From Acetobacteraceae bacterium (GTDB taxonomy: Bacteria; Pseudomonadota; Alphaproteobacteria; Acetobacterales; Acetobacteraceae), in contig CANBNK010000014.1 of the NCBI GenBank assembly GCA_947371015.1, positions 1-64,000 of the forward strand: a DNA stretch of 64,000 bases, read 5' to 3'. Numbering within the stretch: position 1 is the stretch's first letter; every line of letters starts with the position of its first letter. The position numbers were made by a program, and so were the translations under genes. The notes under the pieces are model-generated. The model searched no databases. It saw only the letters and a program-made list of their open reading frames with translations, and had not been told where the DNA came from. Shown in pieces: positions 42,803-61,003 of this stretch.

Positions 42803-42804
42803 GC

Positions 42805-42818
42805 GAGGAGGCCTCCTC
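42805..42818 (-). promoter_or_regulatory. Perfect palindrome covering the ftsZ Shine-Dalgarno site
   Basis: GAGGAGGCCTCCTC is a perfect 14-bp palindrome immediately before the ftsZ ATG (3 nt downstream of it on the minus strand). The GGAGG ribosome site is its left half and CCTCC, its exact complement, lies just after it. In RNA the two halves could pair and hide the site, or two transcripts could pair. Confidence 0.6.
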
Positions 42819-42911
42819 TCGAGATGCTAATCGGATGCTTCGATTCGTGTCTTGTGCTTGTTCTCGATTCGCCACGCTTAGCTGTGGACGAAACCGAAAG
42901 GCGGCGCTGGT

Positions 42912-44225
42912 TCATGCCATTCGCTCCCGGAACCACTGCACGGCGCGGGTCAGCACGCCCGGCGAGCGGTCCAGCCCGGCGCCGGGATCGAACAGGGGCT
43001 TGCCCTCGCCATTGGCCCAGGCCAGCAGGCCGCAGGCAGTGGCGAAGGCGGGGTTGGCGGCAATCTCTGGCAGGCCGCGCACCTGGTGCGGGCGTGCCAG
43101 GCGCACCTGGCGGTCCAGCACCTGTGCGGCGAGTTCACGGACGCCCACGAGTTGGCTTGCGCCGCCGCACAGCACAACGCGACGACCCATCTCGTGCGTG
43201 ACCCCGGCGGCTTCCAGCCGGGCACGGACCAGTTCGAAGGTTTCCTCCAGCCGCGGGCGGATGATCCGCACCACCATGGCGCGCGGTACGCGGGCGATCT
43301 GGTCGGCTTCCTCGCCCATTTGCGGGACGTGCAGCCATTCCTTCTCATCCTGCGGCGCCTCATGGACGCTGCCGTACTTCACCTTGATGTGCTCGGCATC
43401 CGCCATCGGCGCCGACAGGCACTGCGCCAGGTCGGAGGTGACGCGGATGCCGCCGATCGGGATCTGGGCTGCATGCACCAGCTGGCCTTCCTGGAACACC
43501 GCCAGCGAGGTGGTGCCGCCGCCCATGTCGATGACGGTGCAGCCCAGCTGCTTCTCGTCCTCCACCAGCGTGGCGAGGCCCGAGGCGTATGGCGTGCTGA
43601 CCAGCTCCTGCACATCCATGTCGCACCGAGCCATGCCGGCCGCCAAGTTGCGCAGGGCGGCGGAGCCGGCATCGAGGATGTTGACCCGGGCGCCGATGGT
43701 CTCGCAGATCATGCCGCGGGGGTCTTCGACGCCGGCGGTGGCATCCACGCTGAAGCCGAGCGGGAAGGTGTGGACTGCCTCGCGCTCCAGCGTCTCGGCG
43801 CTGCTGTTGCGGCGGCGGGCTTCCAGCAGCACGGCGCGCAGGTCGTTGTCGGTGACGGCGCGGCCGCCGATCAACCATTGCAGGTTCTGCAGGCGGCTTT
43901 CCGGCTGCCCGCAGCTGAGATTGATGATGGCGCCGGTGAGCTGGGTGTCGGCCATGTCCTCGGCCTGGCCAACCGCGGCGCGGATGGCGCGCTCAGCTTC
44001 CTCCAGGTCAGTGATGCTGCCGGCCTTGACCCCGCGTGAGCGTTGCCAGCCGAAGCCGAGCACGCGCGGTTCGCCATCGCCTTCGATGCGCGCGATCATG
44101 CAGACGATCTTCGAGGAGCCGATATCCAGCACGCCGAAGCTGCCGCTGCGAGGATTGCGGCGGCGGCGCTGAACCGCGGGTGGCGCGGCGTCCAGGGTGC
44201 TGGACAGGCGGGTGAGCTGGTTCAT
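42912..44225 (-). CDS. ftsA: Cell division protein FtsA
   Basis: A 437-residue actin-like protein. FGVLDIGSSKIVCMIA (30-45) is the phosphate-1 site, VIDMGGGTTSLAVF the phosphate-2 site and VVLCGGASQLVGV the adenosine site; the C-terminal amphipathic helix is VLTRAVQWFRERMA. It anchors FtsZ to the membrane. An unusual basic N-terminal extension (about 25 residues, QRRRRNPRSG) precedes the core. Its start overlaps ftsQ's stop as ATGA. Confidence 0.97.
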   Translation of the reverse strand: MNQLTRLSSTLDAAPPAVQRRRRNPRSGSFGVLDIGSSKIVCMIARIEGDGEPRVLGFGWQRSRGVKAGSITDLEEAERAIRAAVGQAEDMADTQLTGAIINLSCGQPESRLQNLQWLIGGRAVTDNDLRAVLLEARRRNSSAETLEREAVHTFPLGFSVDATAGVEDPRGMICETIGARVNILDAGSAALRNLAAGMARCDMDVQELVSTPYASGLATLVEDEKQLGCTVIDMGGGTTSLAVFQEGQLVHAAQIPIGGIRVTSDLAQCLSAPMADAEHIKVKYGSVHEAPQDEKEWLHVPQMGEEADQIARVPRAMVVRIIRPRLEETFELVRARLEAAGVTHEMGRRVVLCGGASQLVGVRELAAQVLDRQVRLARPHQVRGLPEIAANPAFATACGLLAWANGEGKPLFDPGAGLDRSPGVLTRAVQWFRERMA

Positions 44226-45106
44226 CCGCGCACGCTCCGGGCTCGTTGGATGGCGGTTGGGTCAGGCTGCTGGGCCGGCGCGGGCGGGGCGACCTGCACC
44301 GTCATCTTGTCCGGCAGGCGCAGGTCGATGCTGGCGACCGGGCGGTCCAGCAGGCCGATGGCGGCGTGTTGCTCGCGCAGCTTGCGCAGCGCGGCTTCCT
44401 CCAGCCCCTCGGGCAGGCGGATTTCGGTGCCGTTGCGCAACTTGAGGTTCCAGCGCCTGTTGCCGACGCGGATCAGCACCTCGGTGCGGTCGCGCAGCAC
44501 GGGCTCGGCCCGGAGCAACTCCACCATGCGTGCGGCATGAAGGTTTGCGCCGCCGCCGACTACCCATGGCAGCAGGCCGAATTCCTCGATGCGGTCGCTG
44601 ATCGGCCGCCCGGCACGATCGATCACCTCCACCACGCCGCCATGCTGCCAGATCGCGTAAGGCTGGCGTTCGGTGATGCGGACCAGGATGTCGCCGGGCA
44701 GGTGCCGCTCGACATGGGCACTGGCCACCCAGGCATTGGCTTCCAGCCGTTCGCGGGCGGCTTGCGGTGAGAACGCCAGCGTCGGGTCGCCGCGCTGCAC
44801 GCCCAGCGCGCGGCGCAACTCCTCAAGCGGTGCGTGCTGGCGGCCTTCCAGCGTGACGCTGCGGACCACCAGGCCGGCGCCAGTACCGAAGCCGGGCGCG
44901 CCGGAGACCAGGGATTGCACCCGTCCGGCCGGGTCCAGCGCCAGCACGCCCATGACAGCGCCGCCGATGACCGCGAACAGCAGGCCGAATTGCAGGGTCG
45001 GGCGCACCAGGGCGCGGCGGCGGCGCAGCCAGAGCCGCAGGCCGGAAGGGCGGTCCGGCGTGGTCTCGCGGCCGCGCGGGCGGCGTTGCGTGGGACTACG
45101 GGCCAT
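44222..45106 (-). CDS. ftsQ: Cell division protein FtsQ
   Basis: A 294-residue bitopic protein: basic cytoplasmic N-terminus (1-37), membrane helix (about 38-57), POTRA domain (VRSVTLEGRQHAPLEELRRALG through VRITERQPYAIW), then the beta domain. It bridges early and late division proteins in the FtsQLB complex. It overlaps ddl by 11 nt upstream. Confidence 0.95.
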   Translation of the reverse strand: MARSPTQRRPRGRETTPDRPSGLRLWLRRRRALVRPTLQFGLLFAVIGGAVMGVLALDPAGRVQSLVSGAPGFGTGAGLVVRSVTLEGRQHAPLEELRRALGVQRGDPTLAFSPQAARERLEANAWVASAHVERHLPGDILVRITERQPYAIWQHGGVVEVIDRAGRPISDRIEEFGLLPWVVGGGANLHAARMVELLRAEPVLRDRTEVLIRVGNRRWNLKLRNGTEIRLPEGLEEAALRKLREQHAAIGLLDRPVASIDLRLPDKMTVQVAPPAPAQQPDPTAIQRARSVRG

Positions 45107-46028
45107 GGGCAGCGTGCTCCACCATCCAGGCGCAGAGTTGCGGGAAGGCGATGCCGCAATGCGCGGCCTGTTCCGGCACCAGGCTGGTCGCGGTCATGCC
45201 GGGCTGGGTGTTGACTTCCAGCAGCACCACGCGACCCAGGGGCAGGGGGCCGTCGCCCTGTGTATCGTCGTAGCGGAAATCGGCACGGGAGACGCCGCGG
45301 CAACCCAGCGCCTGGTGTGCGGCCACGGCGACGCGCATGGCTTCGGCCGCGGCATCCGGATGGATCGGCGCGGGCAGCACATGGCGGCTGCCGCCGGCGG
45401 CGTATTTCGCTTCGTAGTCGTAGAAGGCCAGCGCGGTGGTGATCTCGGTGACCGTCAGCGCGCGGTCCTGCATGACGGCCACGGTGAGTTCACGGCCGGG
45501 GATGAAGGGTTCCGCCAGGATGGCGGGGCCGAAGGTCCAGCCGCGGGCGATATCGCCGCGCCGGTTGTCGCCGCCGCGCAGGATGTGCACGCCGACGCTG
45601 CTGCCTTCGCTGACCGGCTTGAGCACATAGGGGCGCGGGAACGGGTCGGCAGCCTCCAGCTCCGCCGGCGTCATCAGCCGGTGCTCGGCCACGGGCAGCC
45701 CGGCGGCGGCGAAGACCGCCTTGGCGGCGACCTTGTCCATGGCCACGGCGGAAGCGCGCAGACCGCTGCCGGTGTAGGGCAGGTGCAGCCAGTCCAGCAC
45801 GCCCTGGATGCAGCCATCCTCGCCGAAACGGCCATGCAGGGTGTTGAACACCACGTCGGGCTTCGCGGCCTGCAAAGCGCCGATCAGCGCACCGAGATCA
45901 GCAGTGACATCGATGGGGGTGACCGCATACCCAGCCTGGCGCAGCGCCGCGATGCATTGCGCGCCGGAGTTCAACGAGACTTCGCGCTCGGCCGAGATGC
46001 CGCCGTAGAGGACCGCGACGTGTTTCAT
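45096..46028 (-). CDS. ddl: D-alanine--D-alanine ligase
   Basis: A 310-residue ATP-grasp ligase. VAVLYGGISAEREVSLNSG (4-22) with the N-terminal glutamate, NTLHGRFGEDGCIQG (about 62-76), PVSEGSSVGV and the metal-binding EVNTQPGMT at the C-terminus are present. It makes the D-Ala-D-Ala cap of the peptidoglycan stem. The YGGxSAE pattern matches D-Ala-D-Ala rather than D-Lac ligases. The start overlaps murB's stop (ATGA). Confidence 0.96.
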   Translation of the reverse strand: MKHVAVLYGGISAEREVSLNSGAQCIAALRQAGYAVTPIDVTADLGALIGALQAAKPDVVFNTLHGRFGEDGCIQGVLDWLHLPYTGSGLRASAVAMDKVAAKAVFAAAGLPVAEHRLMTPAELEAADPFPRPYVLKPVSEGSSVGVHILRGGDNRRGDIARGWTFGPAILAEPFIPGRELTVAVMQDRALTVTEITTALAFYDYEAKYAAGGSRHVLPAPIHPDAAAEAMRVAVAAHQALGCRGVSRADFRYDDTQGDGPLPLGRVVLLEVNTQPGMTATSLVPEQAAHCGIAFPQLCAWMVEHAAHGP

Positions 46029-46930
46029 GCCACGTCCCCGATGCGCTTGATTTCCCATTCCAACGTCACGCCCGACTGCGCCAGGACGCGTGCGCGGACC
46101 TGTTCGCCCAAGGCTTCCAGCTCGGCCGCCGTGGCGCCGCCGGTGTTGAGCAGGAAGTTGCAGTGCTTCTCGCTGACCTGCGCGGCACCCAGCGTCAGGC
46201 CGCGGCAGCCGGCGGCGTCGATCAGCTCCCACGCCTTCTGGCCCGGCGGGTTCTTGAAGGTACTGCCGCCGGTGCGGGCGCGGGTCGGCTGCGTGGCTTC
46301 CCGCGCGACGCGGATCTCGGTCATGCGGGCGGCAATGGTGCTGGCCGCTCCGGGCTGCGCGTTGAAGCGGGCACGGATGACGACGCCGCGGGGCGGCAGC
46401 GTGGCGTGGCGATAGCTGAAGGCGAAGGCGCTGGCGGGCAGCCGCTGGATGCCAGCCGGCGTGGCGATTTCCGCCCAGTCCAGCGTGTCCGTCACCTCGC
46501 GGCCATAGGCGCCGGCGTTCATCGCCACCGCGCCGCCGATACTGCCGGGGATGCCGCTCAGGAACTCCAACCCGGTCAGGCCAGCGGCGGCGGCGTGCTC
46601 GGCCACGGTGGCGTCCAGGCTGGCAGCGCCGGCGATAACGCCATCGGCTTCCACAGCTACCTTGCCGAACGCACCGCCCAGCCGCAGCACCACGCCGCGG
46701 AAGCCTCCATCGCGAATGATCAGGTTGGAGGCGGCGCCCAGGATGGTCAGCGGCGTCGCGGCGTCCAGGCCCGCCAGCAGCGCCACTAGGTCCTCGGCAT
46801 CGGCCGGGCGCACCAGCCATTCCGCCGGACCGCCGACGCGAAACCAGGTGAAGGGCGCCAGCGCCGCGCCGGCCTGCACGCGGCCACGCAGCAAGGGCAG
46901 GGCGTGCGCGTTCTTCATGCGCGCACTCAT
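46025..46930 (-). CDS. murB: UDP-N-acetylenolpyruvoylglucosamine reductase
   Basis: A 301-residue FAD enzyme that reduces UDP-GlcNAc-enolpyruvate to UDP-MurNAc. FAD loop [18 protein letters not shown] (about 60-77), [18 protein letters not shown] (about 126-143), and the catalytic Ser in [10 protein letters not shown] are present. The ATG at 46930 overlaps murC's stop (ATGA); an ATG at 46918 is also possible, and an extension to 47044 has no ribosome site. Confidence 0.95.
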
Positions 46931-48378
46931 TGGCCGCCGCCACGCTGGCGCAGCGCACTGCGGCCGGGCGTGCGGGCCTGCAAGGCGGTCAACTGCGCCG
47001 GCAGCGCCGCTGCCCAGGTGGTGATGTTGCCGGCGCCGAGGCACACCACGAAATCGCCCGGCTTGGCGATCGCGTGCAGCATCTCTGCGAGCGAATCGGG
47101 TCCGGGCAGGGGCACCACGCTACGGTGCCCACGCGCCCGCAGCCCGTCCACCAGCGCGTCCTTGTCCATGCCCTCGATCGGGGCTTCGCCGGCAGCATAG
47201 ACATCCGCGATGATGACGGTTCCCGCGTCGTTCATGCAGGAACAGAAATCCTCGAACAATGTCGCTAGGCGGGAGTAGCGGTGCGGCTGCACCACCGCGA
47301 TGACGTCGCGCGCGCCGGCCTGCCGCGCCGCCTTCAACACGGCGGCAATCTCGACGGGGTGGTGGCCGTAGTCGTCGATGACAGCGATGCCACCGGCCTC
47401 GCCGACGCGGGTGAAGCGGCGCTTGACACCCTTGAAGCCGGCCAGCGCCGACCGGATGGTGTCGCTGTCGATGTCCATCTCCACGCCCACCGCAATGGCG
47501 GCCAGCGCGTTCTGCACATTGTGCTGGCCCAGCATGGGCAGGCGGAAGGGCTGCAGCGCGCGGCGGCGACCGGTGACGCGGTCGCGCACCGAAACCTCGA
47601 AGCTGGCGCCCATGCGGTCCGTGAGCAGCTTCTCGGCGCGTACATCGGCCTGCGGCGAAAAGCCGTAGGTCACCAACCGGCGGTCCAGCTTGGGGATCAT
47701 CGCTTGCACCTCCGGGTGGTCCAGGCACAGCACGGCAAAGCCGTAGAACGGGATGTTGCCGACGAACTGGGCGTAGCCTTCCTTCATCGCCTCGTCGGTG
47801 CCCCAGTGGTCCAGGTGCTCAGGGTCCATGTTGGTGACGATGGCAACCGTGCTGGGCAGCCGCAGGAAGCTGCCGTCGCTCTCGTCGGCCTCCACCACCA
47901 TCCAGTCGCCGCCACCCAGGCGCGTGTTGGTGCCGTAGGCGTTGATGATGCCGCCATTGATCACCATCGGGTCGTACTTGGCGGTTTCCAGCACCGCGCC
48001 GACCAGGCTGGTGGTGGTGGTCTTGCCATGCGTGCCGCCGACGGCGATGGACCACTTCAGCCGCATCAGCTCCGCCAGCATCTCGGCGCGGCGCACCACC
48101 GGCACCAGGCGCGAGCGCGCGGCGGCAACCTCCGGGTTGTCCTTCTTCACCGCGGTGGAGACGACGACGACTTGCGCATTGCCGAGGTTTTCCTCGGTGT
48201 GGCCGATGCTGACGGGAATGCCGGCCTCGCGCAGGCGGGTGACGTTGTAGCCCTCCGCGATATCGCTGCCCTGCACGGTGTAGCCAAGGTTGTGCAGCAC
48301 TTCCGCGATTCCGGACATGCCGATGCCGCCGATGCCGACGAAGTGGATGGGGCCGATGGTCAGGGGCAGGGCGCGCAT
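46927..48378 (-). CDS. murC: UDP-N-acetylmuramate--L-alanine ligase
   Basis: A 483-residue Mur ligase, first of the four amino-acid adding enzymes. [18 protein letters not shown] (11-28) binds UDP; the P-loop [14 protein letters not shown] is near residue 111-124; [14 protein letters not shown] and [11 protein letters not shown] (about 175-200) complete the ATP/Mg site, and [14 protein letters not shown] lies in the C-terminal domain. The ATG follows murG's stop with no spacing. Confidence 0.97.
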
Positions 48379-49542
48379 CTAGGGGGTCTCCGTCAGGCCA
48401 AGGGCCCGCTTGCGTTCGGCCGCCACCTGGGGCGCGCGGGTCAGCCAGACCACCAGGTCCGCCAGGGCGCGGGCGGCCTGCGGCCGGCCAAGCCGGGCTG
48501 CGCTTTCGGCGGCGCTGGCGAGGGGCGCCGGTACGCCGAACAGCCCGGCCAGGCGGACCGAGAGGGTGTCGGGGGTGAACTCGGGTTGGGGCATCAGCCA
48601 GGCGCCGCCGAAATCGGCCAGCGCCCGGGCATTGCCGGCCTGATGGTTGTCGATGGCGCCGGGCAGCGGCACCAGGATGGACGGTCGGCCGGCGCAGGCC
48701 AGTTCGGCGATGGTGGAGGCACCGGCACGGCCGATGACCAGGTGGGCCATGGCCAACCGCGTCGCTACATCCGGGAAGAACCGGGAGAGCTCGGCAGCGA
48801 CTCCGGCCTCGTCATAGGCGGCGCGGACGCGATCCAGGTCCTCGGCGCGGCATTGCTGCGTCACCACCAGGCGCTGACGCAACTGACTGTCCAGCCGGGC
48901 GACGGCTTCGGGTACCACATCGGCGAAGATGCGCGCGCCGAGCGAGCCGCCGAGCACGAGCAGGCGGATGACGCCATCCGGCGCCGGGGCGACATAGCCC
49001 TGGCCCGACAACTCGGCCAGCGCCGGGCGCACGGGGTTGCCGACCACCCGCTTCTGCGCGCCGGGTGGCACCTTTTCCGTCTCGGCGAAGGACAGCGCGA
49101 GGGCATCGACCCGCGTGGCCAGCAGCCGGTTGGCGCGGCCGAGCACGGCGTTCTGTTCATGGATGACGGTGATCGGCCGGCGGGCGCCCATGGTCAACGC
49201 GGCCAGCAGCGGCGGCACGCTGGGGTAGCCGCCGAAGCCGACCACGGCCTGCGCCTTCAGCCGGCGCAGCAGGCCCAGCGCGGTAAAGGTGCCGGTGGCG
49301 ATGCCAAAGGCGCCGCGCAGCTTGCCGAAAAGCCCATGCCCGGCCAGGCCCGAACCGGCGAGCACGAAGCGTTCGGCGCGGGCGAAGGCCGGGCTTTCGA
49401 AGGCGGCCGAGCGGGCATCGGTCATCAACGCCACGGTTTCGCCGCGCGCCAGCAGTTCAGCCGCCAGGGCTTCCGCGGGGAACAGGTGTCCACCGGTGCC
49501 GCCGGCGGCGATGACGATGGGGTGCCCGGGTTGGCCGCTCAT
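48379..49542 (-). CDS. murG: Undecaprenyldiphospho-muramoylpentapeptide beta-N-acetylglucosaminyltransferase
   Basis: A 387-residue GT28 enzyme that makes lipid II from lipid I at the inner face of the membrane. GGTGGHLFPAEALA (14-27), VGFGGYPSVPPLLAA, IHEQNAVLGRANR, LVLGGSLGAR and the donor-site IGRAGASTIAELA are present. It overlaps ftsW by 4 nt. Confidence 0.96.
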   Translation of the reverse strand: MSGQPGHPIVIAAGGTGGHLFPAEALAAELLARGETVALMTDARSAAFESPAFARAERFVLAGSGLAGHGLFGKLRGAFGIATGTFTALGLLRRLKAQAVVGFGGYPSVPPLLAALTMGARRPITVIHEQNAVLGRANRLLATRVDALALSFAETEKVPPGAQKRVVGNPVRPALAELSGQGYVAPAPDGVIRLLVLGGSLGARIFADVVPEAVARLDSQLRQRLVVTQQCRAEDLDRVRAAYDEAGVAAELSRFFPDVATRLAMAHLVIGRAGASTIAELACAGRPSILVPLPGAIDNHQAGNARALADFGGAWLMPQPEFTPDTLSVRLAGLFGVPAPLASAAESAARLGRPQAARALADLVVWLTRAPQVAAERKRALGLTETP

Positions 49543-50717
49543 TCGGCGGCCTCGCTGCGGCTGGTGCGGCGGCGGGTCAGCGCCAGCAGCATGCCCATGC
49601 CCAGCGCGATGGCTAGCGCCGAGGAGCCGCCATAGGAAATGAATGGCAGCGTCATGCCCTTGGCCGGGATGAGTTGCAGCGAGCTGGCCATGTTGATGAA
49701 GGCCTGCAGCCCGAACTGCGCCAGCAGTCCGGTGGTCGCCAGCACCACCACCTGGTCCTGTTCCGCCAGCAGCTTCAGCAGGCCGCGGACCACGACGAAG
49801 CAGAACACCGCCAGGATCAGCATGCAGATGACCAGGCCGAATTCCTCCCCCGTGACCGCGAAGACGAAGTCGGTATGCGGGTCGGGCAGCGAGTTCTTCA
49901 CCGTGCCCTCGCCCGGGCCGGTGCCGAGCAGGCCGCCATGGCCGAAGGCTTCGGCGGCGCGGTCCACTTGGAAGTTGTCGCGCCCGCCCGGCGCCGCGGT
50001 ACCGCTCCACCAGCGGTCGAACCGGTCGCGGAAGTGCGGCATGGTGAAGTAGATGCCGATGCCGCCGAGCACGCCGAGGCCGCCCATGCAGGCCACGATC
50101 ATCCAGTGGATGCCGGCGACGAAGACCTGGGCAAAGAACACGGCGACGATGACGATGAGCATGCCGATATCCGGCTGCGACTTCAGCACCACCGCGATAC
50201 CGGCCAGCATGACCACCGCTGCACCGTACCACGCCAGGCGCGGCTTCAGCACGGCGAAGCGCCCCATGCCCGCGGCCAGGGCGGCGCGGCGATTGCCTTC
50301 CGCCAGCAGAAGCGCGGTGGTAACGGCAAAGCAGGGCTTGAGGAACTCCGAGGGCTGCAACTGCTGGCCGGCGACGCGCAGCCAGCGGTGCGCGCCGTTG
50401 ATCTCGGGGCCGAACTTCAGCGCCAGCGCGGTGGCGACGAAGGCGATGGCGCAGCCGACCAGCGCGAGCAACTGCACCCGCTTGCGCTCCAGCAGGCTGA
50501 TCGCGACCATCATGGCGGCGGCGGCGGCGAGGAAAAACACCTGCTTGCCGATGAATATGGACGGATCGATGCCCTGGCGGCGCGCGGCCATGGGTGCCAC
50601 CGCCAGCATTGCGACGTAGCCCAGCACCATCAGCAGCACCAGCGCGTAGAGGCTGAACCGATCGACGGTCCACCACCAGCGGCCGAGCACCGAGGTATCC
50701 GTGCGGGAGACCGCCAT
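49539..50717 (-). CDS. ftsW: SEDS-family septal peptidoglycan polymerase FtsW
   Basis: A 392-residue, ten-span protein. The SEDS signature includes NGAHRWLRVAGQQLQPSEFLK (about 106-126), then KSQPDIGM and the C-terminal ISYGGSSALAIALGMGMLLAL. With the FtsI-type transpeptidase it polymerises septal glycan. GGAG 8 nt before the ATG and a TGATG overlap with murD fix this start. Confidence 0.96.
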   Translation of the reverse strand: MAVSRTDTSVLGRWWWTVDRFSLYALVLLMVLGYVAMLAVAPMAARRQGIDPSIFIGKQVFFLAAAAAMMVAISLLERKRVQLLALVGCAIAFVATALALKFGPEINGAHRWLRVAGQQLQPSEFLKPCFAVTTALLLAEGNRRAALAAGMGRFAVLKPRLAWYGAAVVMLAGIAVVLKSQPDIGMLIVIVAVFFAQVFVAGIHWMIVACMGGLGVLGGIGIYFTMPHFRDRFDRWWSGTAAPGGRDNFQVDRAAEAFGHGGLLGTGPGEGTVKNSLPDPHTDFVFAVTGEEFGLVICMLILAVFCFVVVRGLLKLLAEQDQVVVLATTGLLAQFGLQAFINMASSLQLIPAKGMTLPFISYGGSSALAIALGMGMLLALTRRRTSRSEAAE

Positions 50718-52078
50718 CAGCTGCGCTCCTTCATAACCAGGACGAGGTCGCGGAAGCGGTCGCCGCGTTGCTCGAAACCGGTGAACTGGTCCCAACTGGC
50801 ACAGGCCGGGGAGAGCAACACCACCGGGGCGGCGCCCGAGAAGGCGGCGGCGGCGGCGGCGGCGACAGGCAGGGCGGCGTCCAGCGTGCCGGCGACCTCA
50901 TGCGAAACGCCGGCCTGTGCCAGCACTTGGGCGAAGGCCGGCGCCGCCTCGCCGATCAGCACCGCATGGGCGATGCGCGGGAAGTACGGCGCCAGCGGGC
51001 CGATGCCGTCTGCCTTGGCCTGGCCGCCGGCGATCCAGACCACCCGGCCATAGCTGGCCAGCGCGCGCACGGCGCTGTCGGCGTTGGTCGCCTTGCTGTC
51101 GTTGATGAAGCGTACGCCGTTGATGTCGGCGACCAGTTCCTGGCGATGCGGCAGGCCGGGGTAGCTCAGCAGCCCGTCGGCCACTTCCGCCCGCGTCAGG
51201 CCCAGCGCCAGGGCGGCGGCACTGGCGGCCGCGGCGTTCTGGGCATTGTGGGCACCGGGCAGGGCGCGGGCCAACGTCAGGTCGGCGATCACACCCGCCG
51301 CGTCGCGCAGCAGCGCGCCCTCGGCCCAGATGCCCCCGTGTTGCGGCGCCTGCGCGGAGATCGGCACCAGCCGCGCGGTTACGGACGTGGCCGCGGTCAG
51401 GGTGTCGTCCTGGCCGAGGATGGCGAGGTCCTGCGGCCGCTGCCGGTCGAACACATGCGCCTTGGCCGCGGCGTAGCCAGCCATGTCGCCGTGGCGGTCA
51501 ATGTGGTCCGGCGAGAGGTTCAGCAACACCGCAATGTCGAAGCGCGTGCTGGCCAGCCGTTCCAGCGAATAGGACGACATTTCCAGCACGTAGACCCCGG
51601 CATCTCCCAGCAGCGGCATGGCCAGTGCGGCGGGGCCCAGGTTGCCGCCGGCCACCGCTTCTCGCCCTGCGCCGACCAGCATGTGGTGCAGCAGCGCCGT
51701 GGTGGTGGACTTGCCATTCGTGCCGGTAATGCCGACGAAGCGCGCGGCGCTGCCCGAAGCGCGGACGGCACGGTACAGGTATTCCACGTCGCACAGGATC
51801 GGCTTGCTCGCCGCCCGCGCGGCGGCGGCGGCGGGGTGCACGCGCGGCAGCACATGCGGTATGCCGGGCGAGAGCAGCAGCGAGTCGAAGTCGAAGGCCA
51901 GCGCCGGGTCGGCCACGCGCAACCCGGCGGCCAGCGCGGCGTCGCGCCCGGCCGGCTTGTCGTCCCAGCACGTCACCGCGGCGCCCCATTCCGCCAGCCG
52001 CGCGGCCGCCGGCAGCCCGGCCTTGCCGAGACCGACCAGGGCGATGCGCTCGCCGGCAAAGGGACGGAAGGTGCTCAT
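50717..52078 (-). CDS. murD: UDP-N-acetylmuramoyl-L-alanine--D-glutamate ligase
   Basis: A 453-residue Mur ligase. [20 protein letters not shown] (about 13-32) binds UDP-MurNAc; P-loop [15 protein letters not shown] near residue 114-128; [13 protein letters not shown] near 185; [15 protein letters not shown] in the C-terminal domain. It adds D-glutamate. The start overlaps mraY's stop as ATGA. Confidence 0.96.
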
Positions 52079-53163
52079 CGGATCTTCAACGTGCTCAGGC
52101 CGACCAGCGCCAGCACCATGGCGATGATCCAGAAGCGGATGACGATGGTCGGTTCGGCCCAGCCCTTCTTCTCGAAGTGGTGGTGCAGCGGCGCCATCAG
52201 GAAGACGCGGCGGCCTGTGCGCTTGTACCAGAACACCTGGATGATGACGGAAACCGTCTCCACCACGAACAACCCGCCGACGATGGCCAGCACCAGCTCA
52301 TGCTTGGTGGCAACAGCCACGGCGCCCAGCGCGCCGCCGAGCGCGAGCGACCCCGTATCCCCCATGAAGACCGCGGCCGGTGGCGCGTTGAACCACAGGA
52401 AGCCAAGGCCGGCGCCGATCAGCGCGGCGCAGAACACCGCCAGTTCGTTGGCGCCGGGCACGTGTTGCAATTGAAGGTAGCCGGCGAAGATGCTGTTGCC
52501 GACCAGGTAGGAGATCAGCACGAAGACGCCGGCGGCGATCATGACCGGCACCACCGCCAAGCCGTCCAGCCCGTCGGTCAGGTTCACCGCGTTGGAGGCG
52601 CCCATCATCACGAACATGGCGATGATGGGAAACAGGTAGCCGAAGTTCAGCAGGGCTTCCTTGAACACCGGAATCGCCAGCCGGGTATCCAGCCCCTTTG
52701 GCAGAAGCCAGACGATCCAGATGGAGACGGCAAGGCCAAGGCCTGACTGCACCGCCAGCTTCATCCGCCCGGAGACGCCCTTGGTGTTGCGCTTGGTCAC
52801 CTTCAGCCAGTCATCGGCGAAGCCCAGCAGGCCGTATCCCACGGTTAGTACCAGCACGGCCCAGACCAGCCCGCTGCGCAGGTCCACCCACAGCAGGGTG
52901 GAGGCCACCAGCGCCATCAGGATCAGCACCCCGCCCATGGTGGGCGTGCCCTTCTTCTCCACCAGGTGGCGTGCCGGGCCGTCCTCGCGGATCGGCTGGC
53001 CGCCCTTCTGGAAGGTGCGGAGGAAGCGAATGACGCTCGGCCCCAGCGCCAGCGACAGCACCAGCGCGGTCAGGCAGGCGGCGCCGGCGCGGAAGGTGGT
53101 GTAGCGGATCAGGTTGAACAGCGCGAAGCTGTCCGACAGGGGCGCGAAGATGTTGAAGATCAC
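52075..53163 (-). CDS. mraY: Phospho-N-acetylmuramoyl-pentapeptide-transferase
   Basis: A 362-residue ten-span enzyme that joins phospho-MurNAc-pentapeptide to undecaprenyl phosphate (lipid I). [11 protein letters not shown], the aspartate pair in [32 protein letters not shown] and the histidine-rich [12 protein letters not shown] are all present. Start overlaps murF's stop. Confidence 0.97.
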
Positions 53164-54515
53164 GAGAGAGGCTCCGTCAGCGCCTGGATGATCACGGCCA
53201 TGCGGCTGCCGAGGGAGCCCTTCACCAGCACGGCGTCGCCAGGACGCAGCGCCGCGCTGACGAGGGGCGCGAGGCTTGTCGAATCCGCCGCCTGTGCGCC
53301 CTGCCTATCGGCGGGCAGGGCGGCGAAAAGATGGCCCATCAAGGGCCCACAACAGAACGTCAGGTCGGTTGCGGCGGCCACATCGGCGGCCAGTTCGGCA
53401 TGCAGGGCGGGGCCGTGGTCGCCGAGTTCGCGCATATCCCCCAGCACCGCGATCCGCCGGCACGCCGGCTGCGCCGCCAGCACTGCCAGCGCGGCGCGGA
53501 TGGAGGCGGAGGAGGCGTTGTAGGAATCGTCCAGCAGCAGCGCCTCGCCGCCCGGCAGCGCAATGGCCCGGCGCGCGCCACGCCCTGCCGCGGCACCAAA
53601 GCCAGCCAGCGCGGCGGCGGCGCGGGCGGGCGGCGCGCCCAGCGCCACGGCGGCGGCCAGCGCGGCGCAGGCATTCACCGCCAGGTGGCGGCCGGGGGCG
53701 CCGAGCGCCACATGCAGGGTTTCGCCATGCAGGCGGATCGTCGCCTCGCCAGCCTCGGCCGTGCCGGCGTAGTGCAGCAGCTGAGAATCGGACGGCGCCT
53801 CGCCAAAGCCTTGGGCGCGCGGCCCGGCGGCGGCACGCAGCAGCGGGGCGAAATCGCTGTCGGCGGGGTAGATGCCGACGCCGCCCGGCTCCAGGCCCTG
53901 GAAGATGTCGGCCTTTTCGCGGGCGATTTCCTCGCGACTGCCGAGATGGCCGAGATGCGCCGTGCCAACATTGGTGATGACCGCCACATCCGGCCGCGCC
54001 AGCCGCGCCAGCGGGGCGATCTCCCCGCGATGGTTCATGCCAATCTCGATGACGGCGAAGGCGGCGTCACCCGGCTGGCGCGCCAGGGTCAGCGGCACGC
54101 CCCAATGGTTGTTGTAGCTGGCCACGGCCGCATGCGTCGTGCCGCAGGCGGCCAGCGCGGTACGCAGCATGTCCTTGGTCGTGGTCTTGCCGACGCTGCC
54201 GGTGATCGCGGCGAAGCGGGCTTGGCTGCGGGCGCGGCCGGCGGCGCCGAGCGCGGTCAGGCCGGCCAGCGTATCGGCCACGGTCAGCAGCGGGGCGCCC
54301 GCGACGGGGCGGTCCACCATGCAGCAGGCAGCGCCGGCGGCCAGCGCGGCGGGGACGAAGTCGTGGCCGTCGCGCACATCCCGCAACGCGATGAACAGGT
54401 CCCCGGGTTGCACCGCGCGGCTGTCGATGGCGATGCCGGAGATGGCCAATTCAACCGGCAGCGTGCCAGCGGTGGCGGTACGCAATTCGGCGGAGGACCA
54501 AAGCGGGTGGGTCAT
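53160..54515 (-). CDS. murF: UDP-N-acetylmuramoyl-tripeptide--D-alanyl-D-alanine ligase
   Basis: A 451-residue Mur ligase. [20 protein letters not shown] (N-terminal UDP domain, about 25-44), P-loop [14 protein letters not shown] near residue 108-121, [24 protein letters not shown] and [10 protein letters not shown] are present. It adds the D-Ala-D-Ala made by Ddl. The ATG overlaps murE's stop; the open frame continues far upstream inside murE but carries no MurF sequence there. Confidence 0.96.
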
Positions 54516-55981
54516 GGGCGCGGCCGATCCAGTTCGGCGGCCAACTGCCGCACCACGGCCACGTCGTCGAACGGGTGGGTGACGGCGCCGATGGTCTGGC
54601 CGGGTTCGTGACCCTTGCCGGCCACCGCCAGCACGTCGCCGGGCTGCAACTCGGCCAGCGCCAGTGCGATGGCATGGCGGCGGTCGCCGGCATCGATGCC
54701 GGCGGGCCAAGGGGCGCCCATGCCGGCCAGCACGGCGGCGCGGATGGTCGCGGGGCCCTCGCTGCGCGGGTTGTCGTCGGTGACGAAGCAGCGGTCGGCC
54801 AGGTCGGCGCAGGCCGCGCCCATCAGCGGGCGCTTGCCGGCGTCGCGGTCGCCGCCAGCACCGAAGACGACCAGCAGCCGCCCAGCCGCGTGCGGACGCA
54901 GCGAGGTCAGCAGGGTGCGCAGGCCATCCGGCGTATGCGCGTAGTCCACGTAAACCGCGGCGCCGTTCGGCAGGGTGGCCGCCAGTTCCAGCCGGCCACG
55001 GACCGGCAGCAGGTGGGGCAGCAACGCCACCCCCTGCGCCGCCTGCAGGCCGCAGGCCAGGGCCAGCGCCAGGGCGAGCAGGGCGTTGTCGGCCTGGAAG
55101 CGCCCGACCAGCGGCAGGTGCAGCGTGTGGTCCTGGCCCTGCACGGCAAACGTCAGGTCCTGGCCATCCGGTCGGGGCTGCTGGTGGCGCAGGTGCAGGG
55201 CGTCGCCCGCCTCCCCCACCGTCAGCAACCGCGGCCGGCTGCGCAGGGCGCCCAGCGTCTCGGCATCCATGTCCGCATTGGCCACCGGCACCGCGCCTTC
55301 GGGCAGCAGCGCGTCGAATAGTCGCAGCTTGGCGGCCCGATAGGCGGCCATGTCGCCGTGGTAGTCCAGGTGGTCGCGCGTCAGGTTGGTGAAGCCGGCG
55401 GCGGCTAGCCGCACGCCGTCCAACCGGCGCTGTTCCAGGCCGTGGCTGCTGGCTTCGATGGCGACATGGGTGATGCCGGCCTGCGCCAGCGCCGCCAGTG
55501 TGGCGTGCAGCGTCACCGGGTCCGGCGTTGTCAGCGAGGGGCCGGGCGCGAAGCCCTCGGCGATGATGCCGAGCGTGCCGATGCTGGCAGCGCGATGGCC
55601 GGCGAGGGTCCAGAGTTGGCGGAGGAAATCCACCGTACTGGTCTTGCCGTTGGTGCCGGTGACGGCGACGACGCAACCCGGCTGCGGTCCGGCCAGCGCG
55701 GCGGCGGCCAGGGCCAGGGCGCGGCGCGGGTCGGCCGCCCACAGCATGGGGGCGTGGCCCGGCGGCGTTCCCTCGGGGGCGAGGATCGCGGCGGCGCCAG
55801 CGGCCTCGGCGGCGGGAATGAAGGCGCGGCCATCCGCGCGGCTGCCGGGCAGGGCGGCAAACAGTAAGCCGGGCGTCACCGCCCGGCTGTCGGCCGTCAC
55901 TCCCCGCACCTCGGCTTCCGCCAGGATGGCGCCATCCGGCGGGCGGGCGCCCGCGACGCGAAGGAGCTCAGCGAGGCGCAA
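54512..55981 (-). CDS. murE: UDP-N-acetylmuramoyl-L-alanyl-D-glutamate--2,6-diaminopimelate ligase
   Basis: A 489-residue Mur ligase. The N-terminal VRGVTADSRAVTPGLLFAALPG block, P-loop TGTNGKTSTVDFL and NLTRDHLDYHG are in order; TDDNPRSEGP carries the DNPR motif that marks meso-diaminopimelate specificity. There is no ATG near the conserved start: TTG at 55981 is chosen, with GGAGG 6 nt upstream and a 14-nt overlap with the end of the transpeptidase gene. Upstream sequence in the same frame is low-complexity Arg/Pro and is the antisense-free reading of the transpeptidase tail. Confidence 0.95.
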   Translation of the reverse strand: MRLAELLRVAGARPPDGAILAEAEVRGVTADSRAVTPGLLFAALPGSRADGRAFIPAAEAAGAAAILAPEGTPPGHAPMLWAADPRRALALAAAALAGPQPGCVVAVTGTNGKTSTVDFLRQLWTLAGHRAASIGTLGIIAEGFAPGPSLTTPDPVTLHATLAALAQAGITHVAIEASSHGLEQRRLDGVRLAAAGFTNLTRDHLDYHGDMAAYRAAKLRLFDALLPEGAVPVANADMDAETLGALRSRPRLLTVGEAGDALHLRHQQPRPDGQDLTFAVQGQDHTLHLPLVGRFQADNALLALALALACGLQAAQGVALLPHLLPVRGRLELAATLPNGAAVYVDYAHTPDGLRTLLTSLRPHAAGRLLVVFGAGGDRDAGKRPLMGAACADLADRCFVTDDNPRSEGPATIRAAVLAGMGAPWPAGIDAGDRRHAIALALAELQPGDVLAVAGKGHEPGQTIGAVTHPFDDVAVVRQLAAELDRPRP

Positions 55982-58010
55982 TCGGCACCTCCGGCGCCGC
56001 CACCAGGCGAACCGGGGTTTCGGTCGCGGTGCGGCGAATGACGCTGGGCGGCGGCAGCGTCGGCATGGCGGCCGGGCGGGCGGGCGTGGCCTGGCTGGGC
56101 GGCGCGGTTGGCGGGGCCGCTGCCGCCGGGCGCGGCGCATTGCCCGGCCGGGCCGGCGGGACCGAGATGGCGATGGTCTGCTGGATCTGCGCCGCGCGGT
56201 CGATCTCCGGCACCAGGCCCAGCACCGGGGCGACGCGGGTGATGACGTCGTGCGCTGCCGGCGCCGCCACCCAGCCGGCGGTGGCGAAGCCGTGGCTGCG
56301 CGCGTTCGGGCTGGGTTCGTCCACCATGACATAGACCGCGTAGCGCGGCGCGTTCATCGGGAAGGCGCCGACGAAGGCGGCGATGCGCTTGTTTTCCATG
56401 TAGCGCCCATGCGGGCCGGATTTCTGCGCCGTGCCGGTCTTGCCGCCGACGAAGAACCCCGGCACTTCCGCCGACTTGCCGGAGCCATCGGTCACCACCA
56501 GGCGCATCAGCCGGCGCAGCGTGTCCGACGTGCGTTCGCTGACGACGCGGGTGCCCGGGCGGGGCTCCCCGGCCGGCTGGGCGACGATCGTGGGCTGGCG
56601 AAGTATGCCGCCATTGGCCAGCGCCGAGACTGCGGTGATGACGTGCAGCGGGGTCACCGCGATGCCTTGGCCATAGGCGATGGTCATGGTGCTGACTTCG
56701 CGCCAGCCCGCGGCCGAGGGCGCCAGGGGCCGGCGCAGGCCGGGCAGTTCCACCGTCAACGGCGCCAGCTGCCCCAGGCGCACCATGAACTCGCGCTGCC
56801 GCTGCGGCCCGGCGGTCATCGCCATGTGCGCGGCGCCAAGGTTGGACGAGAACTGCAGCACTTCCGGGAAACTGAGCCAGCGCCCCTTGCCGCGATAGTC
56901 ATGCACCGTGAAGCGCCCGACCTTGATATCGCGGGAGGCGTCGAAGCTGCTGTTCAGATTGGCGGTGCCGTATTCCAGCGCCATGGCGGCCGTCAGCAGC
57001 TTGAAGGTGGAGCCCGGCTCGTACACGCCGCTGGTGACGCGGTTGTAGCGCTCGCAGCGGTTGGAGACGCGGTTACGCTCCTCCTGGTCCGGGCCGCAGA
57101 AGCGGGCGCCCATGGGGTCGTTGCCGTCATAGTCCGGCAGGCTGACCATGCCGAGGACTTCGGCGGTGGTGATGTCCATCAGCACGCCGGCGCCGCCGAT
57201 GCCGCTGTAGTCCACGATCGCGCGGCTCACCGCATCCCGCAGCGCCAGTTGCACGCGGATGTCGAGCGAGAGGCGCAGCGGTTGGCGGTCGATGCGGAGC
57301 TGACGGTCGAAGGTCAGCTCGGCGCCGGCCACGCCGCGATTCTCCAGGTCGATCACCTGGCCCAGCACATGCACCGCGCTGCGGCCCTGGGGGTAGATCC
57401 GGCGTTCCGTGTTGCGGAACTCGATGCCATAGGCGCCGGCGTTGAGGACGCGCTGGTGCTCCTGCGGCGTCACGTCATGGCGGATATAGACGAAGCGGGC
57501 GGGTTCCTCGGTGCCGGGGACCTTGTGCGGGCTGAGCCGGGCGATCAGCGCGTCGCGGTTCATGTCCGGGAAGACGGTCCGCAGCAGGTCCGCCACGCGG
57601 ACCGCATTCGCCGGCGAGCCGATCGCCTCGGGGTCCGCGGTCAGCGAGGCACCGGGCAGGCTGGCGGCCAGCGTCTCGCCGTTGCGGTCGAGGATGCGGG
57701 CGCGGGTGACGGTGGTCTCGGTCGGCGAGGGCAACCGTACCGCCTGGCGAGGGCGCGGCAAGGTCGGGTCCAGCACCGTGGCGCGCAGCAACTGCCCGCC
57801 CACCGCCGCGAACAGCCCGCAGAAGCCGATGGCGGCCAGCAGCAGGCGGCCGCGACTGGTGTCGGCCTGGCGGCGGCGCGCCAGGTCGGGAGCGGAGTTG
57901 ACCTTTTCCAGGGAGCGGCCCGGAGTACGCGGGGCGGCGCCGACCGTGCGGCCAAGCGGCGCTGCATCCGGCGCCGGCGGCGGGCGGTCCGGCATGAAGG
58001 GCTCGTTCAT
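55968..58010 (-). CDS. ftsI: Septal peptidoglycan transpeptidase (FtsI/PBP3-type)
   Basis: A 680-residue class B penicillin-binding protein: cytoplasmic Pro-rich N-terminus (1-53), one membrane helix (about 55-72), pedestal domain, then the transpeptidase with SxxK S334-TFK, SSN (388-390) and KTG (524-526). A proline/alanine-rich tail of about 80 residues (from ~600) follows the domain, unusual for FtsI. It cross-links septal peptidoglycan with FtsW. The ATG overlaps ftsL's stop. Confidence 0.95.
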   Translation of the reverse strand: MNEPFMPDRPPPAPDAAPLGRTVGAAPRTPGRSLEKVNSAPDLARRRQADTSRGRLLLAAIGFCGLFAAVGGQLLRATVLDPTLPRPRQAVRLPSPTETTVTRARILDRNGETLAASLPGASLTADPEAIGSPANAVRVADLLRTVFPDMNRDALIARLSPHKVPGTEEPARFVYIRHDVTPQEHQRVLNAGAYGIEFRNTERRIYPQGRSAVHVLGQVIDLENRGVAGAELTFDRQLRIDRQPLRLSLDIRVQLALRDAVSRAIVDYSGIGGAGVLMDITTAEVLGMVSLPDYDGNDPMGARFCGPDQEERNRVSNRCERYNRVTSGVYEPGSTFKLLTAAMALEYGTANLNSSFDASRDIKVGRFTVHDYRGKGRWLSFPEVLQFSSNLGAAHMAMTAGPQRQREFMVRLGQLAPLTVELPGLRRPLAPSAAGWREVSTMTIAYGQGIAVTPLHVITAVSALANGGILRQPTIVAQPAGEPRPGTRVVSERTSDTLRRLMRLVVTDGSGKSAEVPGFFVGGKTGTAQKSGPHGRYMENKRIAAFVGAFPMNAPRYAVYVMVDEPSPNARSHGFATAGWVAAPAAHDVITRVAPVLGLVPEIDRAAQIQQTIAISVPPARPGNAPRPAAAAPPTAPPSQATPARPAAMPTLPPPSVIRRTATETPVRLVAAPEVPIAPR

Positions 58011-58849
58011 CGGCCGAAACCACCCAGCGTGGCGGCATTGGCGGTGCCATAGGGCACCGGCGGCGCCAGCAGCGGCGCGCCGAGACCACCCAGCAGGGAA
58101 CGCGCAGGCAGCTCGGGCGCCGGCAGCTGGCGAGGCGGCTGGGTTGCCCGGGCATAGGCCTGAGGCGCCGGGGTGTAGGCCGGCGCGGCGTTGTACGGCA
58201 ACGCCTGGGCGGCAGGCGCGGCGATCGGCGGCAGGGCCGGGCGCGGTGTCGGCGGCGAGCTGGCCCGGGGCGTGGCGGCGAGGACGGCGCGCGGTTCCAC
58301 CATGGCCAGCAGGTGCGGCGGAGCGGGGGGCGGCAGCGGCAGGGCTTCGTCCTCGGCGACGGCATCGGCTTGCGGCACGGCGGCGGGCAGCACGCTGGCC
58401 AAGGCAGGGGCCGGCGCGATGCTGACCGGGTTGGCGGGCCGGGTGCTGGCCAGCACCACCGTCGGCGCCAGCAGTGCCGGCGGCAGCAGGGCAATGGCGA
58501 TATCGGGGGCCGAAGCGCCGTCCCGCCGGGTGAAGGCCGAGGGCTTCGCGTCCGGCGTCTGCTGCGCGGGCAGCCGACGCTCCAACTCGGCGAAGCTGCG
58601 GTTCTGCGGGGTCTGCGAAACATCCTGCGGCAGCAGCAGCTGCGACAGCTGGCGCAGCCGCGGCAGGTCGTTCAGCGTGCCCCAGACGGATTCCAGGGTC
58701 TCCTTCTGCTTCTGCGATGCCTTGATCTGCTCGGCGACGCCGGCCAGCTCGCGGTCCAGCAGGGCGGTGCTGTGCTTCACCTGGAACAGGTTCCAGCCGA
58801 AGGCGGCAGCAACCAGGAAGCAGAGGACGGTGAAGGGTCGGAAGATCAT
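58007..58849 (-). CDS. ftsL: Cell division protein FtsL with long proline/alanine-rich extension
   Basis: A 280-residue protein from the ATG at 58849 that overlaps rsmH's stop. The first 75 residues match alphaproteobacterial FtsL: membrane helix (about 5-20, [15 protein letters not shown]), then a coiled-coil ([19 protein letters not shown]...) ending [15 protein letters not shown]. Usual FtsL is about 100-130 residues; here 180 further residues are low-complexity Ala/Pro, which should be periplasmic. Position between rsmH and ftsI and the N-terminal pattern support the call despite low sequence conservation. Confidence 0.85.
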
Positions 58850-59805
58850 GCCACGTCCATCCTGCCGCCAGGGGCGGCGCTTATGCATTCAAGCGCACGC
58901 AGCCGGGCTGAACGCGCGCGCGGGTTTGCAGCGGTTTCGGTGGTGCCTGGGCGCAATGCTTTCGCCACCAGCAGCCGGAACGGCGCGGCCGCGCCACGGT
59001 TTTGCAGTGCCGCAGGGTTGTGCCGTGATGCGCTTCCTGCGCGACCACAGGCGTTCTGCATGAACCGCTTGACGATGCGATCTTCCAGGGAGTGGAACGC
59101 CACGACCACCAATCGCCCACCAGGCGAAAGCAGGCTCAACGCAGCCGCGAGACCGCGTTCCACTTCCCCCAACTCGTCATTCACCACGATGCGCAGCGCC
59201 TGAAAGCTGCGCGTGGCGCTGTCGATGCCGGAAGGGTCGCGCGGCACCTTGCTGCGGATCACTTCGGCCAGGCGATGCGTGGTGGTGATGGGGGCTTCGG
59301 CACGGGCGGCGACGATGGTCTTGGCGATGCGGCGCGACAGCCGTTCCTCGCCGAAAGTGAACAGGATGTCCGCCAGTTCCGCCTCGGGCAGCTTGTTGAC
59401 CAGGTCGGCGGCTGTCTTGCCCTCGCGGCCCATGCGCATGTCCAGCGGGCCGTCGGTGCGGAAGCTGAAGCCGCGCTCCGCCTGGTCCAACTGGAAGGAG
59501 CTGACGCCGAGGTCCAGCACCACGCCATCCAGCTTGCTGAGGCCGCGTTCGGCCAGCAGGTCCACCATGTCGCCGAAGCAGCCGGGGATCAGGTGCAGCC
59601 GGCCGGGGAAGCGGGCGGCCAGGCCAGCGCCGCGGTCAATGGCGTCGGGGTCGCGGTCGGTGGCGTAGAGCGTGCAGTCGGCGGCCTCAAGGATGGCCTC
59701 CGCGTAGCCGCCTCCCCCAAAGGTGCCGTCCAGGTAGGTGGCGCCGGCGCGGGGGGCCAGCGTCTCGACCACCTCGGCCAGCATCACCGGGACATGGCCG
59801 CTCAT
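58846..59805 (-). CDS. rsmH: 16S rRNA (cytosine(1402)-N(4))-methyltransferase
   Basis: A 319-residue SAM-dependent methyltransferase that methylates C1402 of 16S r[21 protein letters not shown] opens the protein; SAM motif [14 protein letters not shown] (about 26-39); [20 protein letters not shown] (about 96-115); [15 protein letters not shown] near residue 242. The ATG at 59805 overlaps mraZ's stop; the longer frame upstream lies within mraZ. Confidence 0.96.
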
Positions 59806-60233
59806 GTCGCGGCGTCCATCTCGGCGTCGCGGGCGAGCTGCTCGGCGTAGAGGCCGGGGGTCCAGATGTGGAACAGATCGACCATGCCGACGAAGCTGAC
59901 CGGGCCTTCCAGCCTGGCGTGCTTGATCAGCGCATCGGGCAGCAGCAGGCGGCCATCGCCGTCGACCCGGGCGGTGATGGCGCTGGCGGCCCACTTGCGG
60001 CTGAGACGGGCGAATTCCGGGGTGAAGCGGCCGACCCCGCGCAGCGCTTCCTCCAGCACCTGCTGATAGACCGGCTGCGGCCAAACCTCGATGCAGGGCG
60101 AACCATCGCAAGCGCGCAGCATGACTTCCTCGGCATTCAGCTGGGCCAGCTTCTGGCGGTAGGGCGCGGGCACGGAAAGACGACCCTTGCGGGCGTCAAA
60201 CGTGCCATCGTAGCTGCCCGTGAATTGGGACAT
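59802..60233 (-). CDS. mraZ: Transcriptional regulator MraZ
   Basis: A 143-residue protein with two AbrB-like halves: [23 protein letters not shown] (4-26) and the second [18 protein letters not shown] region (about 85-102), with the DxKGR-type DNA contact present. In E. coli MraZ represses its own operon by binding TGGGN repeats spaced by 5 nt. A decamer-phased GGG array lies 145-190 nt upstream of this gene. First gene of the dcw cluster. Confidence 0.95.
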
Positions 60234-60377
60234 GGTCCCGTGATGCCCCCCGAAGGCTCGTAACCCTGGCCGGGGGAAGCGGCCGGTAAGGAGCCCCCCG
60301 ACCCCTTACCGGCTCGCCCGACCTGCCCGATCAGAACGGCTCGCCCCCCCGAGCGTCGCGTTCCTCACGAGCACTTA

Positions 60378-60422
60378 TGGGATAGCACGGGCAAGTTTGG
60401 GCATTCAAGGGCCGAGTATGGG
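60378..60422. promoter_or_regulatory. Candidate MraZ-box array upstream of mraZ
   Basis: NGGG tetramers start at 60378, 60388, 60398, 60408 (exactly 10 nt apart) and 60419 (11 nt on), reading on the plus strand: TGGG, CGGG, TGGG, AGGG, TGGG. The spacing equals the TGGGN-N5 pattern bound by E. coli MraZ. The array overlaps the candidate mraZ promoter. The boxes read opposite to mraZ. Confidence 0.65.
60380..60408 (-). promoter_or_regulatory. Candidate mraZ promoter
   Basis: On the minus strand, TTGAAT (60403-60408) and CTATCC (60380-60385) are 17 nt apart; GCTATCCC is close to the alphaproteobacterial GCTANAWC-type -10. It lies within the GGG array. Confidence 0.4.
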
Positions 60423-60551
60423 CGGAGGGTGGATTGCTGCGGGCGATTTTTGGTTATTCACCAATAAGTAAGCCCGGTTCACCTCACCCAAGAAGAAAGG
60501 TAAAATTAGCATTAAATATACAAATTCACCACTCAAGTGAGGCCTGGGAGC

Positions 60552-60583: not shown

Positions 60584-60587
60584 AATT

Positions 60588-61003
60588 GCGCCAGGCGGCC
60601 TGTAAGCCGGGTTCTGTACACCTGGGGGATAAGCCCCTGATGTGACGACCATTCCTCTGCGGCGCGCCTTGCGGCGAACCTGTAGCGACCAACCCGAGGG
60701 ACAGGGCGGGAACGCCCCCGCGCCAGCAGGCAAGCCTGCCGCGCCGGCCCCTCCTATTCGGTCTTGCTCCGCGATAGGGTTTACCGTGCCGCCCCCATTG
60801 CTGGGGGCGCGGTGGGCTCTTACCCCACCCTTTCACCCTTACCCCTGGGTCTTGCGACCGAAGGGCGGTTTGCTTTCTGTGGCACTTTCCCTGAAGGCGT
60901 TGCCGCCCCCGCCGGCCATTGGCCGGTATCCTGTTCCCGTGGAGCCCGGACTTTCCTCCGGCTTCGGTTGCCCGAAGCCCGCGGTCGTCCGGCCGCCTGA
61001 CGC
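60588..61003 (-). ncRNA. rnpB: RNase P RNA, bacterial type A
   Basis: About 416 nt. On the minus strand the hallmark segments come in order: GAGGAAAGTCCGGGCTCC near the 5' end, AGGGAAAGTGCCACAGAAA, GAGGAATGGTCGTCACA and ACAGAACCCGGCTTACAGG near the 3' end. The ends are set by the P1 helix: GCGTCAGGCGGCC at the 5' end pairs along its full 13 nt with GGCCGCCTGGCGC at the 3' end. The 5' end is only 40 nt from the stop of the dioxygenase gene on the same strand, so the promoter probably lies in or before that gene. Confidence 0.96.

Follow-up and report, generated by a model that had tools for sequence, protein, structure and literature searches.

The MraZ boxes of Escherichia coli, which Eraso et al. 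are said to have placed upstream of mraZ in 2014, consist in strain K-12 of three GTGGG units that run in the sense direction and lie close upstream of the gene. The conserved arginines of MraZ matter for DNA binding. The protein forms a ring-shaped octamer (PMC7761207), and the E. coli boxes are mentioned in PMC8475190. In Burkholderia cenocepacia, as described in PMC7761207, MraZ was found by gel shift to bind the promoter region PmraBc; the repeats there were recognized by a repeated GTG motif and are located downstream of the -10 element, over the start site. The MraZ sites of Mollicutes are direct repeats of AAAGTG[T/G], and MraZ of M. genitalium was concluded to repress (PMC8475190). The mraZ gene of Alphaproteobacteria is discussed, in three papers, through CtrA, CenR or UpsM (PMC3616915, PMC9275681, PMC5089854). 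A literature search, mostly of titles and abstracts, returned no description of inverted MraZ boxes in Alphaproteobacteria, a prior description being possible, and no MraZ binding or expression data for any alphaproteobacterium.

The window, i.e. the whole stretch of 64,000 nucleotides that was analysed, contains upstream of mraZ a segment that is, with a probability of about 0.87, the operator through which MraZ acts on the dcw cluster. The operator would be built into the core promoter, where MraZ would bind and repress the cluster.

The phased array and the putative core promoter

The dcw cluster occupies 41141..60233 on the minus strand and is comprised of 16 genes (mraZ, rsmH, ftsL, ftsI, murE, murF, mraY, murD, ftsW, murG, murC, murB, ddl, ftsQ, ftsA and ftsZ), 15 of which are supported by Pfam and one, ftsL, by position only; the Mur ligases were told apart by gene order. 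The first gene, mraZ (59802..60233, minus strand), encodes 143 amino acids. Its product keeps R18 and R95, the equivalents of E. coli R15 and R86, which form invariant columns in 16 aligned sequences including that of E. coli. The two conserved motifs, DxKGR and DGxGR, are also kept, the first with one extra residue (DARKGR, residues 13-18 of P0001), which is shared by the congener L003 and by L007 and is absent in the other 13 aligned sequences. A PDB sequence search with the protein matched entries named Protein mraZ and Transcriptional regulator MraZ. The upstream neighbour, rnpB (class A RNase P RNA, 60587..61000, minus strand, 263.1 bits), has the same direction as mraZ, and a table in PMC2704228 shows the two genes as neighbours in Pelagibacter too.

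A preliminary description of this DNA had reported four GGG triplets at exact 10-nt spacing and a fifth at 11 nt, lying over the promoter of the 16-gene cluster with the TGGGN-N5 geometry of the E. coli boxes, and all of this was confirmed. On the plus strand GGG starts at 60379, 60389, 60399 and 60409, in 10-nt steps, and at 60420, 11 nt further on; another GGG starts at 60427. Read in the sense of mraZ, the array is a series of decamer-phased CCC triplets overlapping a -35/-10 pair. Its four boxes (60379-60381, 60389-60391, 60399-60401 and 60409-60411, minus strand) are tandem units of the TGGGN type at a 10-nt period, more than the three that are the least for such an array, and stand upstream of mraZ within the dcw context. 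Their position is conserved among relatives, where the array goes together with mraZ. The units of the window fit the unit of the class below average: position 4, which is A in 94% of the 246 units from the class, reads T, A, G and A in the window.

When the 353-nt intergenic region between mraZ and rnpB was shuffled 20,000 times with dinucleotide composition kept, four units in a row at period 10, on whichever strand, appeared in 34 shuffles, a three-unit run at period 10 in 861, and a four-unit run at any period of 8-12 in 163. The array upstream of mraZ is the sole four-unit run at any period of 8-12 in the 64-kb window. A count over all 5.37 Mb of the genome gave eight sets of four phased CCC, three of them overlapping in a single spot, and the same number, eight, for the reversed control pattern, so that the bare triplet count is genome background and proves nothing alone. 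The array is singled out by its position, its TGNTATCCC context and its conservation rather than by the triplet count.

Failure of the triplets to be conserved in position among relatives had been named beforehand as grounds for giving up the MraZ reading. Among five congeners, the window included, none of the 12 triplet positions varies vs 7 of 21 spacer positions (Fisher p 0.03). In the four other congeners (L002-L005) one more in-phase CCC follows towards the gene, at the place where the window has CTC (60369..60371, minus strand; GAG on the plus strand). This degenerate fifth box contributes in addition to the 5' arm of a leader helix, P1. A sixth genome placed in the genus (G001, L006), outside the five-congener alignment, is far more divergent (45% MraZ identity) and has three in-phase CCC. 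The out-of-phase unit at 11 nt (60420..60422, plus strand) reads CCC, in the mraZ sense, in the window and L004, ACC in L002 and L003, and GGG in L005. It was rejected as the fifth box, with CCC in only two of the five congeners, window counted, and the five-unit array of the preliminary description falls with it; this unit is probably due to chance.

The boxes are interleaved with promoter-like elements. The TTGAAT-N17-CTATCC pair proposed earlier is present on the minus strand at 60408-60403 and 60385-60380, and the class alignment prefers TATCCC (60384-60379) as the -10 element. The -35-like hexamer TTGAAT (60403..60408, minus strand), recognized from the window letters and the class alignment, lies inside the first box interval; the usual TTGACG of the class begins one base further from CCC. 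TTGAAT is separated from TATCCC by N18 in the window vs 17 nt between TTGACG and TATCCC in the usual alphaproteobacterial form. The extended -10-like element TGCTATCCC (60379..60387, minus strand) contains a CCC that is itself an MraZ box; its assignment draws on TGNTATCCC, common to the class, and on the spacing in Sinorhizobium meliloti. In the class consensus, TTGACG-CCCAT-N5-CCCATGNTATCCCAT, boxes lie between and inside the promoter hexamers. An alignment of 89 rows on TATCCC reads tCCwTtgacgCCCATattatCCCATGnTATCCCATa..atCCCAt, with the -35 element between two CCC and the -10 element (TGNTATCCC) including a third; the rows were picked for TATCCC and at least two further in-phase CCC, and the conservation of these columns is therefore a product of that choice. 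A sigma-70 promoter scan did not report the TTGAAT/-10 pair, its sole match being elsewhere (60478-60506, plus strand). TATCCC is a poor sigma-70 hexamer and fails the rule of the scan that position 6 be T.

In S. meliloti 4H41 (L176) there are 180 nt from the box CCC to the ATG, and the mraZ 5' UTR of the species is 170 nt according to Weber et al. (PMC5089854). Together these would place the start 7 nt after TATCCC, a promoter-like spacing, the UTR being a species figure from the paper and the sequence that of one strain. By analogy, the start of the overlapped promoter is predicted at about 60371-60372 (minus strand) in the window, in agreement with the UTR length of this relative, and the 5' leader would be about 138 nt long.

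The array shares with the E. coli boxes the TGGGN unit, the 10-nt period, the place directly upstream of mraZ and the same conserved MraZ arginines. It differs in that E. coli has three sense units downstream of the -10 element, whereas the window has four in-phase inverted units extending from -35 to -10. The four intact boxes are neither in the sense direction nor between the -10 element and the start codon, the two marks of the E. coli-type arrangement; since its units are inverted, the array is a variant arrangement and not of the E. coli sub-type. With PmraBc of B. cenocepacia it shares the period, the repeats there measuring 7 nt with a 3-nt spacer; the location downstream of the -10 element sets them apart (PMC7761207). 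The Mollicutes sites are likewise short-unit direct repeats at the mraZ promoter, read by an MraZ that is a repressor, but their unit sequence is different and the phylum is distant.

The leader RNA between the array and mraZ

The region between the array and mraZ appears to encode a structured dcw leader RNA (model R1, 60269..60378, minus strand) with helices P2 and P3, which carry GGGG loops, and helix P1, added by hand. RNAalifold predicted 28 pairs from 14 leaders; one or more double compensatory changes occur in 12 of these pairs. The covariance model of the leader found one copy each in 17 of 80 genomes of the family. All nine newly met leaders lie just upstream of MraZ and seven of the nine stand behind at least three in-phase CCC; one of the nine, L294, lies on a contig of the same length as that of L216, which was used to build the model. 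No significant match to the covariance model was obtained in 32 other loci (best 15.5 bits, E 0.83), the leader matched no Rfam family, and a scan of 60233-60378 found no intrinsic terminator.

In helix P1, which is outside the model, the in-phase fifth box pairs with the stretch before P3. The arms covary: TGCTCG/CGGGCA in the window, and TGCCCG/CGGGCA, ATCCCG/CGGGAT, CACCCG/CGGGTG and AGCCCA/TGGGCT in relatives. A script found a P1-type helix of 5-7 bp in 21 of 22 leaders and none in L297, a raw count; for L010 and L014 it picked the TATCCC box as the arm, and for L233 the two boxes came out equal. In the window and in L300 a C-to-T change at the fifth box keeps the pairing and breaks the box. 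This change and the covariation of P1 lend themselves to a reading in which the array is kept partly for RNA, the downstream box serving as the 5' arm of P1, and in which conservation of that box within the genus is uninformative about MraZ. Such a role is possible, if on the doubtful side, and it would be limited to box 5, since transcription is predicted to begin downstream of the four intact boxes. Besides, CCC occupies the place of box 5 in 9 of 11 leader-bearing rows and also in 53 of the 78 other aligned rows.

A 5'-terminal helix could protect the dcw transcript. The leader may resemble in role UpsM of Rhodobacteraceae, to which it was likened by description: both are long structured 5' leaders of dcw, but UpsM has a terminator and is an sRNA processed by Hfq and RNase E, as stated in PMC5089854, while the scan gave no terminator for the leader of the window.

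Orientation and distribution of the array in Alphaproteobacteria

The 400 nt upstream of mraZ (less at contig ends) were compared in 138 alphaproteobacterial genomes, a set of 118 and a later set of 20. At least three CCC at exact 10-nt steps were found in 100 of the 138 (89/118 and 11/20), a raw count that ignores kinship among genomes, as do the genome counts below. In two of the rows counted, little sequence is available upstream (157 nt in L020 and 108 nt in L303). The array counts omit G032 and G043 (of 52 mraZ matches), 16 further alphaproteobacterial matches and the leader-bearing genomes first met in the search with the leader model. At six other periods, 5 of the 118 genomes reach at least three CCC at any. 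The number of in-phase CCC ranges from 0 to 7 across the 118 genomes, 60 having four or more and 58 fewer, and the unit count of the window, called unusual in the preliminary description, is well within this range.

The same description had also taken the strand opposite to mraZ as unusual, and here too the comparison went the other way, inversion being the rule in the Alphaproteobacteria examined. Counted within 300 nt upstream of mraZ, three or more inverted CCA units are present in 112 of 138 genomes (99/118 and 13/20) and three in the sense orientation of E. coli in one (0/118 and 1/20). In other classes of Pseudomonadota (the best-scoring 30 of 47 matches) the figures are 1/30 inverted and 23/30 sense. 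Dinucleotide shuffles of the 118 sequences gave three or more CCA units 5 times inverted and 6 times sense in 2,360. Orientation thus differs by class in the genomes sampled, and the sites look odd only beside E. coli, because most Alphaproteobacteria examined have the opposite orientation, inside the promoter. Sense-strand boxes were rejected as the arrangement of the class, the single three-unit TGG run in 138 genomes being that of G047. It is highly probable that the array of the window is a variant arrangement of the MraZ operator that is normal for Alphaproteobacteria.

AT-rich variants of the array in the class end in ACCAT. Neither three CCC nor three CCA units were found in 9 of the 118 mraZ-bearing genomes and in 4 of the 20 later ones, one of which has only 108 nt upstream. 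Two members of family f13, G155 (L162) and G047 (L309), have mraZ and lack the inverted array, and G047 has the sense TGG run; loss of the array, re-inversion and chance are each possible there.

The three-box array is nearly exclusive to the region upstream of mraZ. The pattern CCCATN5CCCATN5CCCA has 86 matches in 53 of 115 class genomes, and its reversed control has none in the same 115. Eighty of the 86, in 51 genomes, lie within 400 nt upstream of mraZ, three lie upstream of a hidden mraZ in G140, and three lie elsewhere. This stricter pattern is not matched exactly anywhere in the genome to which the window belongs. Other genomic targets of the three-box array were rejected, the only matches away from mraZ in the 115 genomes being in G085 (two overlapping) and G076 (low complexity). 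The array at G085:C1:1132558-1132591 is clean; it may have arisen by chance or mark a second target of MraZ.

When named genomes were scanned for CCCN7CCCN7CCCRTGNTATCCC, MraZ was directly downstream in 76 of the 80 matches listed; in the other 4 only 113-334 nt of sequence extend beyond the box. The titles of the listed matches name genera of Alphaproteobacteria, or only Proteobacteria or Pseudomonadota. One listed match is an exception, a contig titled as a Nitrosomonas MAG (L194), which has an array of the alphaproteobacterial type and mraZ and is perhaps misbinned.

The array also co-occurs with the gene. Of 23 genomes examined that had no mraZ match, 21 gave rsmH, and G054, G058 and G059 were left out. 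Two of the 21 have a divergent mraZ, G140 with the array and G155 without it; the gene of G140 had been missed by the family model. The array is present in 101 of 140 genomes with mraZ (100/138 and G140, not G155) vs 1 of 19 without it. The Fisher value is 5.7e-9, calculated on 90/120 vs 1/19 before the last 20 genomes were added. In G144 (L161), whose locus has no mraZ, TTGACG and three CCC units are kept about 236 nt upstream of rsmH, and TATTTT stands where TATCCC would be. This is possibly a relic promoter freed from the constraint of the box.

These distributions bear on three other explanations of the array. A G-quadruplex of the plus strand could control the promoter and account for the conserved GGG, MraZ being incidental. 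Under the usual rule for quadruplexes (G3+N1-7), the fourfold GGG-N7 of the window qualifies, with four G3 runs and loops of 1-7. S. aureus PmraZ shares G-rich runs with the window, and these were read there as a quadruplex and not as MraZ boxes; 'conserved G4 forming motifs' were reported in other mraZ promoters as well, both in PMC11796246. As the main explanation the quadruplex is the weaker one and quite improbable: 58 of 118 alphaproteobacterial genomes have fewer than four in-phase CCC (runs in phase only being counted), and a quadruplex needs neither the exact 10-nt phase, nor A after CCC, nor the variants that end in ACCAT, nor does it call for the rarity of the array in genomes without mraZ.

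The array might instead be the site of another regulator such as CtrA or CenR. A motif for CtrA is reported to precede mraZ in S. meliloti (PMC3616915), and ChIP is reported to give a CenR signal upstream of the gene in R. sphaeroides (PMC9275681). Yet the E. coli mraZ promoter has this very unit, and an array that goes with the presence of mraZ and is nearly absent elsewhere in 115 genomes is unlike the target of a global regulator, which makes this explanation very unlikely. Chance periodicity in GC-rich DNA was rejected, with hardly any probability left to it, by the conservation of the array in position and context across the class, even though the bare triplet counts in its own genome equal the control.

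A probable promoter-embedded operator of the dcw cluster

The identity of the array as an MraZ operator is well supported, and from it a mode of action can be inferred. Four intact (A)TGGG-N5 units and a degenerate fifth in phase, all opposite to mraZ, are interleaved with the -35 element and contain the -10 element within TGCTATCCC. MraZ made from the first gene would bind these boxes cooperatively, and neighbouring boxes, which share one face of the DNA, would be contacted by different subunits of the ring. The bound protein would cover both the -35 and the -10 elements and compete with RNA polymerase, and the cluster, from mraZ through to ftsZ, would be under negative autoregulation.

A wider proposal, for and against which the chances are about equal, is that the MraZ operator of Alphaproteobacteria has been reversed and merged with the core promoter, a box supplying the -10 element, so that repression would act by covering the promoter, unlike at the start region of E. 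coli and Burkholderia. Within one group of Acetobacteraceae, the downstream box would serve a second purpose: a new dcw leader RNA with three helices would start at the predicted transcription start and use this box for its first helix, so that operator and leader would share bases.

Among gene clusters for division and cell-wall synthesis, dcw is the main one. The two orientations offer a natural comparison, in which the same repressor reads sites in either direction. The results also suggest that MraZ boxes may account for some of the 'conserved G-quadruplexes' of mraZ promoters. An inverted, promoter-embedded operator found class-wide predicts that autorepression by MraZ would be general in Alphaproteobacteria.
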